Assembly: GCA_028279345.1 (NCBI GenBank)
Contig: JANQNY010000031.1
Location: 62,001-126,000 of the forward strand
DNA from: Geminicoccaceae bacterium
GTDB lineage: Bacteria; Pseudomonadota; Alphaproteobacteria; Geminicoccales; Geminicoccaceae
Direction of reading: 5' to 3'
DNA length: 64,000 nucleotides
Within the stretch, counting starts at the first letter, position 1. Every line of letters starts with the position of its first letter. The translations under genes and the position numbers were made by a program. The notes under the pieces were generated by a model that saw only the letters and a list, made by a program, of their open reading frames with translations, had not been told where the DNA came from and ran no database searches. This document shows, piece after piece, positions 56,965-64,000 of this stretch.

Positions 56965-57696
56965 ATGCGCGAGGTCTCGGCGCCCGAGGGGACGAGCCCC
57001 CTCCATCAGCCCTCGGTGTTGGTGTGCGACATCGGTGCCGCGAGCCTCAAGCTGTGGTGCTCGCGCACGGGCGAGACGGCGCGGACGCCTACCGGGCCCG
57101 ACTACACGCCGTCCCAGCTCCTGAGCGACATCGCGACCAAGAGCGCGGGTTGGCCCTTCGACCGAATTACGCTCGGCATTCCGACGGGCGTCAGTCGCGG
57201 CCGCTGCTACAGCGAGCCGCACAACATGGGCGTCGGCTGGCTGCAGCTCGAGGTCGAGGCGGCGTTCGACCACCCGACCAAGCTCATCAACGACGCCGTC
57301 ATGCAGGCGCTCGGCAGCTATGCGGGCGGCGTCATGCTGTTCTTGGGGCTCGGCACGGGGCTCGGCACCGCGCTGGTCCACGATGACCACCCGGTGGGCC
57401 TGGAGATCCAGCACCTGCCCTACCGTGACGGCCTCACCTACGAGGACTGGACCGGGACGCGCGGCATCGAGCAGTTCGGCGTCGAGCGGTGGCGCCACGC
57501 GGTCGCTGACGTGGTCCGCCTGATGAAGGACGCGACGGTCGCCGAGTATGTCGTCCTCGGTGGGGGCAACGTCCGCCTGCTGGACGACCTGCCGCCGCAC
57601 TGCCGCCTCGGCGCCAACGCCAACGCCATGCTCGGCGGCTACCGGCTCTGGGCGGGTGCCGAGGCGGAACTTGTCGGCGGGCTGGAGGGAGCCTGA
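56965..57696 (+). CDS. ROK family protein (polyphosphate glucokinase-like)
   Basis: A 243-residue member of the ROK/PPGK sugar-kinase fold. Phosphate-1 loop VLVCDIGAASLKLW replaces the usual DIGGTxxK, with A for one of the conserved glycines. ITLGIPTGVSRGRC and HPTKLINDAVMQALG (the catalytic-Asp region, NDA) follow, then GGVMLFLGLGTGLGTALVHDDHPVGLEIQHLPY. It lies 13 nt after upp. Its final ~38 codons contain the sequence repeated 5.5 kb downstream at the far edge of the island. Kinase activity is not certain because of the altered loop. Confidence 0.8.
   Translation: MREVSAPEGTSPLHQPSVLVCDIGAASLKLWCSRTGETARTPTGPDYTPSQLLSDIATKSAGWPFDRITLGIPTGVSRGRCYSEPHNMGVGWLQLEVEAAFDHPTKLINDAVMQALGSYAGGVMLFLGLGTGLGTALVHDDHPVGLEIQHLPYRDGLTYEDWTGTRGIEQFGVERWRHAVADVVRLMKDATVAEYVVLGGGNVRLLDDLPPHCRLGANANAMLGGYRLWAGAEAELVGGLEGA
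57619..57656 (+). repeat. Left copy of 38-bp direct repeat (ROK gene 3' end)
   Basis: Matches 63162-63199 in the same orientation with one mismatch; 29 bases (57628-57656) are identical. It encodes ANAMLGGYRLWAG of the ROK protein. The two copies bracket the acquired block. Confidence 0.8.
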
Positions 57697-60600
57697 GAGA
57701 ACGTGTTGGTGCACGGAAGGTCGCCCGGCTTCCGCGCCACGAACGGCAACAGCCGCACGCCCAGGCTCTCCGTACGTCCCTCTGCCGTCCATACCGTTAC
57801 CGTGGTTGGCAGTTGTCCTGTTCCGGTCGGTTTTGCCTCGCCCGATGACTGGGCTTGCCTGGTCACCCACGAACGTTCAGCCTTGGGCCAGAGGCTCGAA
57901 AACTCCTCTCCAGCAGGTGGTTCGACGCACTCGAACTCGGCGACCACGCCCTTCATGTCAGGCAAGACAGTGATGCGCTCTGCAGGTCGGTTGCCGAGTG
58001 TCACTACAGTACCACGCCACAATCGCTCGCCGACCAGCACTAGCTTGCCCGGCCGGCCGACCTCGAGCTGCGCGGCTGGATCCTTGTGAAGCTCCCGTTT
58101 CCATTCGAAGTCGAAATAGGGGTGCTTCACCACTTCAAACTTGAACCGCGCGGTCACATCCTCGACGCGCCGAGGCAACGGCACGGGGTAGGTTCGGGAG
58201 AGGAACGGCTTGTCCAACGCAGGCCCGTCGGCGTTCTGGCCAGCCGGAGAGTTGGTGCCTACCCGCAGGAGCGGCGGGTCCGTGGGCGCCGACGGCTCAC
58301 CGTCGGGGTCGTGCTCAGCACCGCAGACCGAAAGGGGCTTGTCGAACAGCGTCCGCCCCAGTCGGCGCAGCTCGTTCGCGTCCACCCAGCACGCCGTGAC
58401 TTTAACTTGTACCTGTTTCCACCAGCTCGGTACGGAAAGAACGGCTGAGAAGCGGTGATGGCTCGGCGGAAATGCCGCATCGGACGCCGATCCGCCGCGC
58501 GGGCGGACGGCCCAGCCGAAGGTGGTGCTGGTGGGGGCTGCGTGGACGTCAAGCTCATCGCCATCCCCATCCTGAGTGCTGACACCCTCCATCTGGCTGA
58601 AGCCTAGAACGAAGGGCTCGGCCTTGACCTCGTCGGCCAACTCCTCGATCGCCTGTTGGAGCCGCATCGCACTGGTGTTGTCCCCGGCCTTGATGGCGGC
58701 GTTGACGGCGGCCTGCCACTTCTTCCGCTCGGCGGCGGTCTTGACACGCGTTTGGGAGCGCGGGCTCACGGCGTAGACGGCGACGCCACCGTGCTGGTCC
58801 TCAAGCATGCGCGCCAGCCGACAGGCTGCGAAGGCTTCCGCGGGATTGACCGCGCCCACCGCCCGCGACCTCGCCTTGGGTGTCCATGCACGCCCGAGCA
58901 GTTCCTCGAGCTGGTTTTCACGTTGCGCGAGCTCCTCCGCGGTTTGGTTTGAAGAATGGGAAGGCGCCGAGGCCGTATGTATCTTAATTCTGTTTAATCC
59001 ATCCAAGCGGGCGCGCAAATACTTGGCGACGCATTCTGCGCTCCTGCAGCTCCCTAGCTCCTTTAGGGAACCACCTACCGCATGAATATCGACGACAGTC
59101 GCGTCGCCTGGCGGCTCAGAGAAAGTGTCGACAAGGTGGGCGACGTCGAGGGCGTCGATAAGGCCCCGGACCGACAACTCGTCCAGGCATTTTTCTTCGG
59201 CGTTGCGCTCGTGCTCCCACGCTGCGGCGGCAAGCTCGAACCCCGTGACATCCACCCGCGGGCCCACCGCGATCCGGCAAGCCGTGAGTTGACAACCCTC
59301 CCTGTCGACCGACAGATACTCGCTCACCGGCGATTCGGGTCGGTACCCTGGCACATGTGTCTTTTCGAGACGCACGATCACGAACTCGGCGAACAAGTCC
59401 GCCACGGCACCCGATGCCGCATGGTCCAAGAACAGAAAGCGCGCGAGCCTGAACAGACACGCGTCGACCGCCTGTCCCACGTCTTCGCCCTTACCGACAT
59501 CCCTAAACCACTTGGAAATCTCGTCCGAGTCCGTTCTTCCTGGATGCGGACATTTGGAAGTGTCCGGCAGTTTTACTAGACTTGTCTCTACTGTATTTTG
59601 TGGTACATCAGAATTCCGAACCTCTTCCAGCTCGAAGAGAATCTTTTGGATATTTTCAAAAATCAATGGAGTTGTGTTAGCTTCTTGCGATGCTGAGCGT
59701 TCGGCTCGAACTCTTCTCCATTCCAACACGGCATCTTGGGCATCCTTCCGCGCAAAGAAAACTTTTTGAGTCAAATGCCACGCCGAGTGAGCGCCTTGAT
59801 TATTCTGTGATTTCGCAACGTTTCGTTGATCTTGTCGCAATTCGGTGTCGTTTTTCTGAATTTTTTGCCATTCAGAAAGGTTTTCTTGAGCTTTTCGCCA
59901 TTTCAGCAGATCTCGTTGAGCTTGTCGAGATGTCCGGAGTTCTTCGTGAGCTTTCTGCCATGCCAAAAGCAGCTCCGAGTCCGGCACGAACTTGGCAAAC
60001 GACTGAACTAGCGGCCGGAACCCTAAGCCCAGCAGGTCGAGGACTTGCTTGTCACCGTCGCCCCGCGTGGGCAAGATGACTTGAAACCGCGGCTGTCCTT
60101 GTGGCAGGACTGCAGACAGCTCTTGAAGTACGCTGATCATCCGCACGAGCGCTCGCTGACCGCTATCGTCGGGCGACCACGGGGGCGAGCATGCCTGCCT
60201 CGCACCCTTGATCGTTTCTGCATCGACCGGCCTCGCCAGACCAGTTCGAATCGAGTATTGGACGCACGGCTCTTCAGCTTGCTCGCCAATGATGAAGTTC
60301 TGATTGGCGTAGGTGCTCGTTGCTTCTCGCACCTCGTCGATGCGACGCACACGATCGATTGCATCGCGGAAACGGCGCCTCAGATCGTCGTCAAGAATAT
60401 TGGGCGAGGGTGCGTCGGGGCGCCACTCGAGGCCCAACGCCTTAGCGAGCACGCCTTTGCGGGCGCCCTTTTTGAGCTCTATGTGCGTGCTCGGCGAAAC
60501 ACTCGCCACGCTTGGTGGGCAAGAAAAGACATAGTCGTAGTCATCGTAACAAAGGATATCGACTCTGTCGTCGAGAAAGTCGAGAAAAGCTTCGATCACC

Positions 60601-61517
60601 TTGACGCGTAAGAACCAGTCGAAGGCTAGAGACTCTTTAGGGTCTGTCGGATTGTCTAGCCCGCCTGCTTCTTTAAACGTCCGTGTCCGATGATGCAGTA
60701 CCTTTCCGAGAAACACTTGTAGCTCGCGCTCCCAAGAGCGAAGCAATTCGAGGTCGTCAGCCAGGCTTCCCAGCTTCCCATTCTCCGATTCAGTCCGAGG
60801 CTGCTGACTAACCTGGAACAGAAAGACGGCAGACGAGCGAGGGTCGCGTGCGCCAAAGAACGGAACGACGGTCGCATCGAAGTTCATGCGGTAGAGCGTG
60901 TTGCCTGCGAGATCGTGCCCGTCGTCGAGCAGCGTATCCATCAGCTCCTTGCGTACCTGGTCGCGGTAGGTGACCAGACGCCCGAACGTCTCGAGCTGGT
61001 CGAGCGCCTGTTCCCCCAGATCAGGGCTGCTGGATGTCTGATCACCATCGGTCGTTGCCGGCATCGCATCGCCGCCTATTGCCGCTTGAAGATTTGTCGC
61101 CACGGCATGCTGTTCGGCGACCGACGCTTGCTCGAGGGCCTTTCGAAACTCGGGTTTGGTGCTGTTCTGCAGCTCGCTCTCCAGCCAGTTCGCCTGGCGG
61201 AACCGGTCGTTGACGAGGCGCTCGCGGGTGTAGACCTGCGGCGCCTCCAGATAGAGAAAGCCGGGTAGCGGATCGGATCGGAGTTCTCGCACCTCGTCGC
61301 CGGCGATCTCGACATCGCGGCCTTGGTCGTCGTGGGCCGTCCACGCGAACAGGTGCGCTGCACCCCAGTTCACGTTGTCGGTTACAACCCTCTCCACCGT
61401 TGGAGCGATCGCGATCGCACCAATGCACGCCAGCGTGATCAGCGCGACGAGCGCGGGCCAGAGGATCAGCCGGCGGACCAAGGGTGTGGCACTGCTCAGC
61501 GCACTAAGGGTGAACAT
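57639..61517 (-). CDS. Large membrane-anchored protein of unknown family (RiPP-operon partner)
   Basis: About 1292 residues, unrecognised. It starts MFTLSALSS with a single membrane helix (about 17-38, LILWPALVALITLACIGAIAIA); the bulk lies outside the cytoplasm if N-in. Residues 40-515 are globular with acidic and helical stretches. Residues about 516-605 are nine tandem 10-residue repeats, consensus xLxxWrkaQx, predicted helical. The C-terminal third contains beta-rich segments (GKLVLVGERLWRGTVVTLG). The ATG at 61517 overlaps the maturase end by 14 bp and has AGAGG upstream; an ATG at 61532 is also possible. It ends antisense inside the ROK gene (58-bp overlap). Base composition in its middle is much richer in A/T than neighbouring genes, suggesting transfer. 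Function is not inferable beyond co-transcription with the precursor and maturase. Confidence 0.75.
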   Translation of the reverse strand: MFTLSALSSATPLVRRLILWPALVALITLACIGAIAIAPTVERVVTDNVNWGAAHLFAWTAHDDQGRDVEIAGDEVRELRSDPLPGFLYLEAPQVYTRERLVNDRFRQANWLESELQNSTKPEFRKALEQASVAEQHAVATNLQAAIGGDAMPATTDGDQTSSSPDLGEQALDQLETFGRLVTYRDQVRKELMDTLLDDGHDLAGNTLYRMNFDATVVPFFGARDPRSSAVFLFQVSQQPRTESENGKLGSLADDLELLRSWERELQVFLGKVLHHRTRTFKEAGGLDNPTDPKESLAFDWFLRVKVIEAFLDFLDDRVDILCYDDYDYVFSCPPSVASVSPSTHIELKKGARKGVLAKALGLEWRPDAPSPNILDDDLRRRFRDAIDRVRRIDEVREATSTYANQNFIIGEQAEEPCVQYSIRTGLARPVDAETIKGARQACSPPWSPDDSGQRALVRMISVLQELSAVLPQGQPRFQVILPTRGDGDKQVLDLLGLGFRPLVQSFAKFVPDSELLLAWQKAHEELRTSRQAQRDLLKWRKAQENLSEWQKIQKNDTELRQDQRNVAKSQNNQGAHSAWHLTQKVFFARKDAQDAVLEWRRVRAERSASQEANTTPLIFENIQKILFELEEVRNSDVPQNTVETSLVKLPDTSKCPHPGRTDSDEISKWFRDVGKGEDVGQAVDACLFRLARFLFLDHAASGAVADLFAEFVIVRLEKTHVPGYRPESPVSEYLSVDREGCQLTACRIAVGPRVDVTGFELAAAAWEHERNAEEKCLDELSVRGLIDALDVAHLVDTFSEPPGDATVVDIHAVGGSLKELGSCRSAECVAKYLRARLDGLNRIKIHTASAPSHSSNQTAEELAQRENQLEELLGRAWTPKARSRAVGAVNPAEAFAACRLARMLEDQHGGVAVYAVSPRSQTRVKTAAERKKWQAAVNAAIKAGDNTSAMRLQQAIEELADEVKAEPFVLGFSQMEGVSTQDGDGDELDVHAAPTSTTFGWAVRPRGGSASDAAFPPSHHRFSAVLSVPSWWKQVQVKVTACWVDANELRRLGRTLFDKPLSVCGAEHDPDGEPSAPTDPPLLRVGTNSPAGQNADGPALDKPFLSRTYPVPLPRRVEDVTARFKFEVVKHPYFDFEWKRELHKDPAAQLEVGRPGKLVLVGERLWRGTVVTLGNRPAERITVLPDMKGVVAEFECVEPPAGEEFSSLWPKAERSWVTRQAQSSGEAKPTGTGQLPTTVTVWTAEGRTESLGVRLLPFVARKPGDLPCTNTFSQAPSSPPTSSASAPAQSR
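59703..59972 (-). repeat. Nine degenerate 30-bp tandem repeats in the large protein
   Basis: Translated on the minus strand, the segment falls into nine rows of ten residues with no indels. The pattern is hydrophobic at positions 2-3, Trp or another residue at 5, basic at 6-7 and Gln at 9. Examples are LLLAWQKAHE, DLLKWRKAQE and NLSEWQKIQK. The antisense frame shows the same periodicity (FLELFAIS-like units), so the repeat exists at DNA level. Confidence 0.7.
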
Positions 61518-62664
61518 GGCCAGCCTCTGCATGGCGAATGTCTCGCAGATCGGCTTCGAACTCGGGCAGCAGGGCGTCGACGACCGCCTGGGTCGTTAGC
61601 CGGCAATAGAGCGTCTCCGTGGCCGCGAAGTCGCCGTGCTCGAAGAACTTGTTGCCCGGCGCGCCGCCGCCGCAGACGTCGAAGTACCGACAGCTTGACC
61701 GGCAGCGCTCGACGCCCTCTCGGATCAGGCGGTGGAGTCGGCGGAAGGAAGGGTTCTGGAGGATCGCCTCGGATCCCGCCTCGTGCACGTCGGCGAAGAC
61801 GAACCCGCCGAAGTCCGGGGCCGACGCGCCCAGGAGTTCGGGCGAGAAGGTCGAGAGCCCGCCCCTGACGTCGATTGTCACCATGGCGAGTGGCGTTGTC
61901 TGATGATTGCGGCGACGCTCGTCGGGGCTAGCGGCGACGCGGCCCGCGAACCCGTCGATCTCTCGACAGCGAAAGCCCGGCCGAGCAGTGCGAAGGCGCG
62001 CCACCACCCGGCGCAGGAAAGCCGTATACGCGGCCTTGGCGTCGTAGCCTGCGAGCGAGGACGTCGTATTGACGCCCTCCAGTTCTTCGATGTTGAAGCA
62101 GACGTCGGTGATCCCGTGCTCCAGGTAGAAGTCGACCATCTGGTCAGGATCATCGAGTGCCTCGCGGCTGAGGACCGAGATGACGTGGAACGGGTAGTCT
62201 TGCTGCTGCAGGCGCCTGATGCCGGCTAGGACCGCATCGAACGTGCCCTTCCCGTGGCGCGTGACCCTGTTCCGGTCGTGCAGGTGGCGGGGGCCGTCGA
62301 GGCTGACGCCGACGATCACGTCCCAGGCGCGAAAAAGCTCGACCCACCGGTCGTCGATGAACATGCCGTTGGTCTGGAACGCGTGGCGGAGCCGCTTGTC
62401 CGCGGGAATGTGCCGGCTCAGCTTCGTAAACGCCTCTGCGTACCAGTCTGGTGGCAGCACCAACGGCTCGCCCGCATGCCAGACGAGCGTCGTCTCTTCG
62501 GCGAGGAGCCGGCTGCCCAACACGTTGCGGCCGATGGCGTCGATAGTTGCGGCCGTCATGCGCCGCCGATCGCTCCGCTGCGGGAGATAACAGTAACGAC
62601 AATCGAGGTTGCAGAACGGCGTCGACTGGACGACGACGAGCTGTATCGGGCCTACGTCGTCCAT
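61504..62664 (-). CDS. Radical SAM/SPASM peptide maturase, GrrM/OscB-like (cyclophane-forming)
   Basis: A 386-residue enzyme. The [4Fe-4S]-SAM site is Cys18-x3-Cys22-x2-Cys25 in TPFCNLDCRYCYLP. Partial TIM-barrel motifs are VWHAGEPLVLP, FQTNGMFID and VIVGVSLDGPRHLHDRNR. The C-terminal SPASM/twitch region has Cys321, Cys325, Cys331 and Cys354, including YFDVCGGGAPGNKFFEHGDF and TETLYCRLTTQA. This C-terminal block strongly resembles GrrM/OscB, the maturases that crosslink an aromatic residue to a nearby residue in three-residue cyclophanes. The start lies 5 nt after the precursor-peptide stop. The large-protein gene overlaps its end. Family assignment rests on motif memory. Confidence 0.87.
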   Translation of the reverse strand: MDDVGPIQLVVVQSTPFCNLDCRYCYLPQRSDRRRMTAATIDAIGRNVLGSRLLAEETTLVWHAGEPLVLPPDWYAEAFTKLSRHIPADKRLRHAFQTNGMFIDDRWVELFRAWDVIVGVSLDGPRHLHDRNRVTRHGKGTFDAVLAGIRRLQQQDYPFHVISVLSREALDDPDQMVDFYLEHGITDVCFNIEELEGVNTTSSLAGYDAKAAYTAFLRRVVARLRTARPGFRCREIDGFAGRVAASPDERRRNHQTTPLAMVTIDVRGGLSTFSPELLGASAPDFGGFVFADVHEAGSEAILQNPSFRRLHRLIREGVERCRSSCRYFDVCGGGAPGNKFFEHGDFAATETLYCRLTTQAVVDALLPEFEADLRDIRHAEAGHVHP

Positions 62665-62669
62665 TGCGC

Positions 62670-62936
62670 CTACCAGTTGTACCAGTTACGCCAGTCGTTC
62701 CAATAGTTCGGCCAATTTGGCCAGTTCGGCCAGTTGCCCCACTGCGCGCGCGTGCCGGCATCGGTCTTTGTGTGCTGTTCGACGAGCGGGCGAAGCGCAT
62801 CGAGCCGCGCGCTCAGCTCGGCACGCTCAGCCTCCAAGCGATCGACCGCCTCCGCGCGAGCGGCCACTTGCGGTAGCATGGTCAGGGCCAACGCGCAGAA
62901 TGCGCGAAGGAGAGCCAGCGAATGGCGCATGATCAT
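62670..62936 (-). CDS. Precursor peptide with W-x-N repeat core (GrrA-like RiPP precursor)
   Basis: An 88-residue peptide. Residues 4-28 are a Sec-type signal (LALLRAFCALALTMLPQVAARA, AxA-type cleavage before Glu29). Residues 29-57 form a charged amphipathic helix suited as a leader. Residues 66-88 are an array of three-residue units: W66-G-N68, W69-P-N71, W72-P-N74, W75-P-N77, Y78-W-N80, then Asp81, W82-R-N84, W85-Y-N87 and terminal W88. Aromatic-x-Asn is the substrate pattern of three-residue cyclophane maturases, and such an enzyme is encoded 5 nt downstream. GrrA-type precursors also carry signal peptides. Start may be M1 (62936) or M3 (62930). Encoded as near-perfect 9-bp repeats. Confidence 0.85.
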   Translation of the reverse strand: MIMRHSLALLRAFCALALTMLPQVAARAEAVDRLEAERAELSARLDALRPLVEQHTKTDAGTRAQWGNWPNWPNWPNYWNDWRNWYNW

Positions 62937-62970
62937 TCGGGTATTCCGGCATCTCCAAAATTATTCCATT

Positions 62971-62999
62971 ATTTTAGCGAAATGTGACGATCGCTTCAA
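62971..62999 (-). promoter_or_regulatory. Sigma-70-like promoter of the RiPP operon
   Basis: On the minus strand TTGAAG (-35, plus coordinates 62994-62999) and TAAAAT (-10, 62971-62976) are separated by exactly 17 bp. Transcription would begin near 62964, about 28 nt before the precursor ATG. The region is unusually A/T-rich for this genome. This is the clearest promoter seen in the window. Confidence 0.6.
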
Positions 63000-63137
63000 G
63001 GTTGGTTCAGATCGTGCGGGTCGACTGCTTGAGGTGGAGCGCGCTGGGCCGTGATGGTGTCAACCTGACGCGAGCGGTGGCATGGGTTGTGTCGTGATCG
63101 AGCTGCTTGCGCCCAGCGGGGCGCTCCACTTGAAGAG

Positions 63138-63227
63138 ATGCAGGGGGGCTCACTCGTCGGCGCCAACGCTATGCTCGGCGGCTACCGGCTCTGGGCGGGC
63201 ACGGAGGCCGAGCTGGAGTGCGGGTAG
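63138..63227 (+). pseudogene. Remnant of a ROK gene 3' end
   Basis: An in-frame tail reads GANAMLGGYRLWAGTEAELECG and stops with TAG. It matches the C-terminus of the intact ROK protein (GANANAMLGGYRLWAGAEAEL) except for synonymous and late non-synonymous changes. Only about 22 codons are preserved; the sequence before GAN is unrelated. It is too divergent after the shared 38 bp to be a fresh duplication and is best read as the displaced end of a ROK homologue. Confidence 0.75.
63162..63199 (+). repeat. Right copy of 38-bp direct repeat
   Basis: Same sequence as 57619-57656 with one mismatch (T for C before the ATG codon). It lies within the ROK-tail remnant, 5543 bp from the left copy and in the same orientation. 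Confidence 0.8.
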
Positions 63228-63279
63228 AGCCGCCGCCAACAGACGACGCCCGCGGCGACCCCGGCGCGCCAAGCCGGGG

Positions 63280-64000
63280 CTAAGCCAAGGTTCTGTGATG
63301 ATGGGTTAGCGGTGTCGCGGGTGTCCTGGGCGACGTGAAGCGGTAGTAGAGGAGCTTCACGATGTCGGTAGCGATCGTCCAGACGATGACATAGGCCCAG
63401 ACGATGCCGATGAGCTCCCATGAGATACGCGGCATCAGGACACCGTAGGCGCACATCAAGACGGCGACGATCTGCGTGCCGACGATCGCCAGGAACAATG
63501 GCGCCGACGGCCATGGTCTCGAGAAGATCGAGCCCCGCGCGCGCACGACGAAGAGCAGCATATGGCCGCCGGCGGCGAGCTGGAGAAACAGCATCGTCTG
63601 AAGGTGCTGAGCATCCAGGCTGAACTCGGCCATGCGCGCCGGGTCGTTCATCCACTCCATGCCGATGAACACGAGCCCGAAGCTCTGCGCGGTCGCCATG
63701 AGCCCCATGAGGCACGAGAAGATCAGAATGTGGTGCATGTCCCACCTGACCGGTCTGGGCGCCGTTCGCACGCGGTCGTAGGCGATGGTCATGATCGGAA
63801 TGTCGTCGAGGAGCGCCAGCACGACGATCATGATCGCCGTCAGCGGGCGGTTGCCGAAGATCACGTCGGCGAGGACGACCACGAACATGATCGCGATCGT
63901 CATGGCGATGCGGTAATAGACGTAGCTCGTGATGCGCGCGAAAATGTTGCGCGCTTCGACGATCGCGTTGGTGATGGTCGACAGGCCTGGGGCCGTCAGG
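63280..64000 (-). CDS. Plasma-membrane H+-ATPase-like P-type ATPase, C-terminal part (N-terminus beyond window)
   Basis: About 239 residues of the C-terminal membrane domain are in the window. The frame enters at the right edge as LTAPGLSTITNAIVEARNIFARITSYVYYRIAMTIAIMFVVVLADVIFG, the hallmark run into helix M5 of P3A proton pumps. It continues through LTAIMIVVLALLDDIPIMTIAYDRV, with the Asp pair of M6, and further helices to TSPRTPATPLTHHHRTLA. No stop interrupts it. It pumps protons or other cations at the cost of ATP. Truncated only by the window edge. Confidence 0.88.
   Translation of the reverse strand, partial: LTAPGLSTITNAIVEARNIFARITSYVYYRIAMTIAIMFVVVLADVIFGNRPLTAIMIVVLALLDDIPIMTIAYDRVRTAPRPVRWDMHHILIFSCLMGLMATAQSFGLVFIGMEWMNDPARMAEFSLDAQHLQTMLFLQLAAGGHMLLFVVRARGSIFSRPWPSAPLFLAIVGTQIVAVLMCAYGVLMPRISWELIGIVWAYVIVWTIATDIVKLLYYRFTSPRTPATPLTHHHRTLA

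Follow-up and report, generated by a model that had tools for sequence, protein, structure and literature searches.

We found a three-gene cassette that is probably (about 0.6) an operon for a triceptide, a three-residue cyclophane RiPP, of the GrrA-GrrM/OscA-OscB kind with an added envelope protein, acting by the steps set out below. It lies in a stretch of 64,000 nucleotides (the window), part of contig C80 of a 4.4-Mb genome. The three ORFs, whose coordinates were checked, are all on the minus strand and encode an 88-aa precursor peptide (62670-62936), a 386-aa GrrM/OscB-family radical SAM/SPASM maturase (61504-62664) and a large single-pass protein of 1297 aa (57639-61532), probably periplasmic and of an undescribed family. 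The maturase ORF starts 5 nt past the end of the precursor ORF, and the large-protein ORF overlaps that of the maturase by 29 nt, in agreement with the first-pass annotation of three minus-strand genes with 5-nt gaps or overlaps. The upstream promoter that it described was also recovered, as a promoter-like region with two overlapping sigma-70-type matches at 62960-62999 (minus strand); two were found in 62600-63300 against 0.1 expected. At its 3' end the large-protein gene runs antisense over the last 58 nt of a polyphosphate-glucokinase-like gene (56965-57696, plus strand). Rfam gave 0 matches within the window. Another radical SAM ORF, NifB-like by eye, lies ~8.5 kb past the right end of the window (L071:16504-17001). 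The trio of precursor, maturase and large protein looks like a real working unit.

Assignment of the maturase to the GrrM/OscB family, proposed at first pass, is upheld by the curated NCBIfam model TIGR04261 (394.8 bits, cutoff 310). The second-best model, AmcB, scored 300.5 bits, below its cutoff of 425. XncB, MscB, FxsB, YxdB, HaaB and YhhB are likewise radical SAM/SPASM enzymes that cross-link residue i to residue i+2, but on the models that NCBIfam has for such cyclophane enzymes the window maturase scored far lower than its GrrM 395 bits (FxsB 118, YhhB 137, XyeB 85). The CxxxCxxC motif and four SPASM cysteines recognized earlier correspond to CNLDCRYC (C18, C22 and C25; 62590-62613, minus strand) and to C321, C325, C331 and C354 (61603-61704, minus strand). 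None of these seven FeS cysteines varies among six GrrM homologues, which include the plasmid copies of Nostoc and Phaeobacter. OscB (IPR026357) links Trp C7 to the C-beta of Asn or Asp, at residues i and i+2 (review, PMC11002830). Formation of Trp-to-Asn/Asp three-residue cyclophanes is the expected chemistry of the window maturase, well supported by its family. A scan of the genome contig collection with the maturase returned one distant Verrucomicrobiales locus.

The precursor opens with a signal-peptide-like segment with a putative cleavage at ARA/EA, as read from the sequence (residues 1-28; 62853-62936, minus strand). A leader motif, RLDALR, follows at residues 44-49 (62790-62807, minus strand), and the core reads WGN WPN WPN WPN Y WND WRN WYN W (62673-62741, minus strand). 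All seven W-x-[N/D] triplets of this core are permitted by the OscB rule and are predicted cross-link sites. Aromatic-x-[ND] matches cluster far more densely than chance would allow, with 8 overlapping matches in 26 residues; among the 643 ORFs of the window the next one down holds 4, and shuffling the precursor 5000 times never gave a cluster above 5. The leader motif, in the form R[LI]xx[LI]R, is common to all eight GrrM-linked precursors compared (8/8: window, G216, G415, G311, G385, G308, Phaeobacter and Nostoc) and turns up in 1.2% of shuffled versions of the window peptide. RLDALR is likely the maturase recognition helix. The window precursor aligns over its full length with that of genome G216 (z = 22 against shuffles), whose core, AQWYNWPNWRNGWNDWRNQRWFNYRR, is recognizably the same. 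The G216 precursor matched the GrrA/OscA1 model TIGR04260 at E 6.5e-5 and 23.5 bits, under the cutoff of 31, and the window precursor gave no match to it. We have therefore filed the window peptide as a functional counterpart and not as a TIGR04260 member: it has an aromatic-x-Asn/Asp core adjoining a GrrM gene and the shared leader motif, and by homology and context it is a predicted GrrA/OscA-type precursor. The view that the W-x-N peptide is the maturase substrate is thus borne out by homology to other GrrM-linked precursors.

The large protein matched no Pfam, NCBIfam or PADLOC family. A hydrophobic segment preceded by RR spans residues about 22-46 and holds the transmembrane anchor (residues about 22-44; 61401-61469, minus strand), with a best 19-mer hydropathy of 2.49 at residue 22. 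Past residue 80 the hydropathy maximum is 1.28, so that this single hydrophobic segment is followed by ~1250 mostly soluble residues. Such a profile fits an N-in, single-pass topology that would place the protein in the periplasm. The first-pass label of a giant membrane protein is overstated: with one N-terminal segment the protein is not polytopic. Two modules are conserved in an alignment of six family members. The N-terminal module (residues 91-240; 60813-61262, minus strand) carries the pattern Q-V-Y-x-R-E-R-L...Y-R...L-D-D-x-H-D-x-x-G-N-T-L-Y-R, in which R103, E104, R110, Y189, R190, D203, H206, D207 and G210 are invariant. The C-terminal module (residues about 905-1262; 57747-58820, minus strand) carries F-G-W, P-x-W-W, L-W-R and L-P-D-M-x-G followed by an IPT/TIG-like end, and the invariant residues of both modules are present in all six members. 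Likeness to IPT/TIG envelope proteins lies in this C-terminal motif pattern, as judged by eye, and in a sub-threshold TIG match (E 0.012) found only in a Vibrio member. In contrast, Pfam TIG gave no match to the window protein even at E 10, and its N-terminal module matches nothing. Five cysteines are kept in the three GrrM-linked large proteins, a pattern that would be compatible with an oxidizing compartment. Single-sequence models reached a mean pLDDT of 44 for residues 85-330 and 34 for residues 912-1275, and no fold was assigned. A profile of the large-protein alignment gave one match among PDB sequences, at E 0.54, as expected by chance.

The linkage anticipated at first pass recurs: the large protein follows GrrM and a W-x-N precursor in G216 and G415, two further genomes that belong to one order. 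Both have the gene order precursor, GrrM, a 251-aa protein and large protein. Among the 15 genomes of that order, the full-length large protein is confined to these two, and so is a high-scoring GrrM; G422 has a diverged C-terminal homologue of the large protein and G419 a remnant. A class-wide draw of 385 genomes gave a strong GrrM match in 5 and the large protein in 2 (the window genome and G216), and the large protein was missing from 30 relatives searched in the window organism's own order. No match was found in the genome contig collection searched with the large protein, in viral contigs searched with its alignment, or in plasmids searched with the window and G415 proteins. The three GrrM-linked large proteins, each with one N-terminal transmembrane segment, form one clade (support 100/99), and their linkage to GrrM therefore probably has a single origin. 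The GrrM tree is unresolved, and the three maturases linked to the large protein are not grouped together in it.

The conserved 251-aa protein between GrrM and the large protein in G216 and G415 (L011:7613-8368 and L024:7970-8725) has no family match, and no homologue of it was found in the window. A resemblance, drawn by eye, to the gene that grrM is followed by in Nostoc sp. TCL26-01 did not hold up against shuffles.

Base composition sets the cassette apart from its surroundings. GC3 of the large-protein gene is 0.69 (0.47-0.49 over residues 501-700) against 0.78-0.92 in neighboring genes, and the G216 and G415 cassettes have lower GC than dnaX of the same genomes. Copies of a 64-nt direct repeat flank the whole cassette on both sides. 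The left copy (57618-57681) is the 3' end of the glucokinase-like gene, and the right copy (63161-63224) is an isolated 18-codon fragment of that end, 84% identical with a 29-nt exact core. Since the cassette is bracketed by this gene's 3'-end repeat, insertion at that point fits, and the repeat is possibly an integration scar. No integrase was recognized among the cassette genes. The cassette's neighboring genes were sought in relatives G011 and G027 for an empty site, and the same neighbors were not found there. Its composition, the flanking repeat and its scattered distribution suggest that the cassette was horizontally acquired and is inherited as a unit.

In the mechanism that we propose, the 88-aa precursor would be synthesized in the cytoplasm and its leader recognized by GrrM via the RLDALR helix, as the family suggests. 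If the family chemistry applies, GrrM would then link every Trp of the core with the Asn or Asp at i+2, for a maximum of seven cyclophanes. The signal peptide, as predicted from sequence alone, would take the modified peptide over the inner membrane by Sec export. There the anchored large protein would most likely bind or dock it at the envelope; this is the weakest step, suggested by linkage and predicted periplasmic location. Roles as exporter adaptor, receptor, protease partner or display scaffold, as listed at first pass, are guesses, and the role that we infer is one in the periplasm, as a docking, display or receptor partner.

Relatives of the large protein exist beyond these three loci. 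A C-terminal-module profile found them in G760 and in a genome of another class, G781, and tblastn found one on a plasmid of Vibrio sp. MAO6. Lipoprotein N-termini replace the transmembrane anchor in these relatives (LSGC and LAGC; YGC in Vibrio, by eye), with clear lipoboxes in the family proteins P0011 and P0012. No GrrM was found nearby in the stretches examined of G760, G781 and the Vibrio plasmid. Because the wider relatives are lipoproteins away from GrrM, recruitment of an envelope protein to the peptide system accounts for the large protein better than a dedicated role in maturation does, and an obligatory role in maturation or export is argued against. In G781, a 2OG-Fe(II) oxygenase gene (PF13640) directly follows the gene for the large-protein-family lipoprotein (L042:5742-10343).

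The same relatives count against our proposal, as the primary function of the large protein may be unrelated to the peptide. So do the ungrouped maturases in the GrrM tree, the many GrrM loci without a large protein and the failure to assign a fold. A serious alternative, though one we consider clearly less probable, is that the triceptide pair needs no partner and that the large protein, an envelope protein with a function of its own, is simply carried along on the same mobile cassette. The GrrM-free relatives, the absence of the large protein from most GrrM loci sampled and the single origin of the linkage would all agree with this. However, the genes are overlapping or translationally coupled in all three loci, and gene order and strand have been kept while the large proteins diverged to ~25% identity between lineages, a long stay for a passenger. 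The large proteins are also under purifying selection, with dN/dS of 0.19-0.36 for each of the four genes in the G216-G415 comparison. Docking of an exported triceptide by the large protein remains our preferred reading. An unlikely variant is that the modified peptide, ribosomally made and cross-linked, is not secreted as a natural product but stays with the large protein in the periplasm or at the outer membrane, where it would serve as a rigid polycyclophane ligand or structural element and so form part of an assembly in the envelope.

FxsA-type cyclophane peptides travel with NTPase conflict systems. The cross-linked peptide could correspondingly be a toxic or signaling effector, with the large protein as its immunity protein, receptor or delivery partner; we consider this unlikely. 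FxSxx peptides with radical SAM/SPASM enzymes have been described in NTP-dependent conflict systems, and the FxSxx-COOH systems resemble the window operon in that a peptide modified by a radical SAM/SPASM enzyme goes together with a larger protein (PMC7159879). A scattered, mobile distribution also points this way, as does the GrrM locus of G311 (L014:101-7387), where an F-P-N precursor (FPNFPNFNNFPNF...) lies directly downstream of genes for a trypsin-like protein, a 620-aa unknown protein and an nSTAND1 NTPase. That locus may be a conflict system that employs a cyclophane peptide. In contrast, FxSxx-COOH partners are ATPases, peptidases and effectors, whereas the window partner is an envelope protein lacking any such domain. 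The window operon likewise has no toxin, NTPase or defense family, and the large protein has no PADLOC counterpart.

A dedicated role for the large protein in serving the peptide, as exporter adaptor or as leader protease, is improbable. The large protein is anchored, probably periplasmic and encoded directly after the maturase, in an operon holding no other export gene, as such a role would have it. Against this, it has a single transmembrane segment and belongs to no recognizable peptidase or transporter family, the precursor has its own signal peptide, and relatives occur apart from GrrM. We rejected the reading of the maturase as an ordinary sulfatase maturase next to a spurious W-rich ORF: sulfatase maturase models give weak cross-matches (TIGR03942, 140.2 bits, cutoff 349.45) against the TIGR04261 score, and precursors with the shared leader motif are kept beside GrrM in other genomes. 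Both outcomes named at first pass as refuting, a maturase grouping with unrelated SPASM enzymes such as sulfatase maturases and the lack of any other genome linking a W-x-N peptide or the large protein to it, were checked and did not occur.

Other GrrM loci showed further arrangements. In G385, two W-x-N precursors alternate with two near-identical ~240-aa secreted proteins around one GrrM (L012:3085-6786), an apparent tandem duplication. The secreted proteins encoded next to GrrM in G385 and in Phaeobacter showed no detectable kinship to each other or to the large protein. On a plasmid of Streptomyces sp. ADI95-16, grrM is flanked by lanthionine synthetase C-like and lantibiotic dehydratase/thiopeptide-type genes (L074:1446-9128), possibly a hybrid RiPP cluster.

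Taken with the OscA/OscB and GrrA/GrrM triceptides (TIGR04260/TIGR04261; IPR026357), the window pair shares the maturase family, leader motif, aromatic-x-Asn/Asp core and gene adjacency; it differs from them in its W-x-N, glycine-poor core and in its peptide falling outside TIGR04260. Relative to the other GrrM loci examined, the window operon adds the large anchored protein. The peptide-maturase pair is a further case of the known GrrM/OscB type, and what appears to be new is its conserved link to an undescribed envelope protein family. This link was found nowhere described in the literature covered, mostly open papers outside the primary triceptide reports. To our knowledge, no biological role has been established for GrrM/OscB peptides, and a co-inherited envelope partner gene offers a concrete handle on it. 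The exported polytryptophan core, with its seven predicted rings, would also serve well as a substrate on which to test iterative cyclophane formation.
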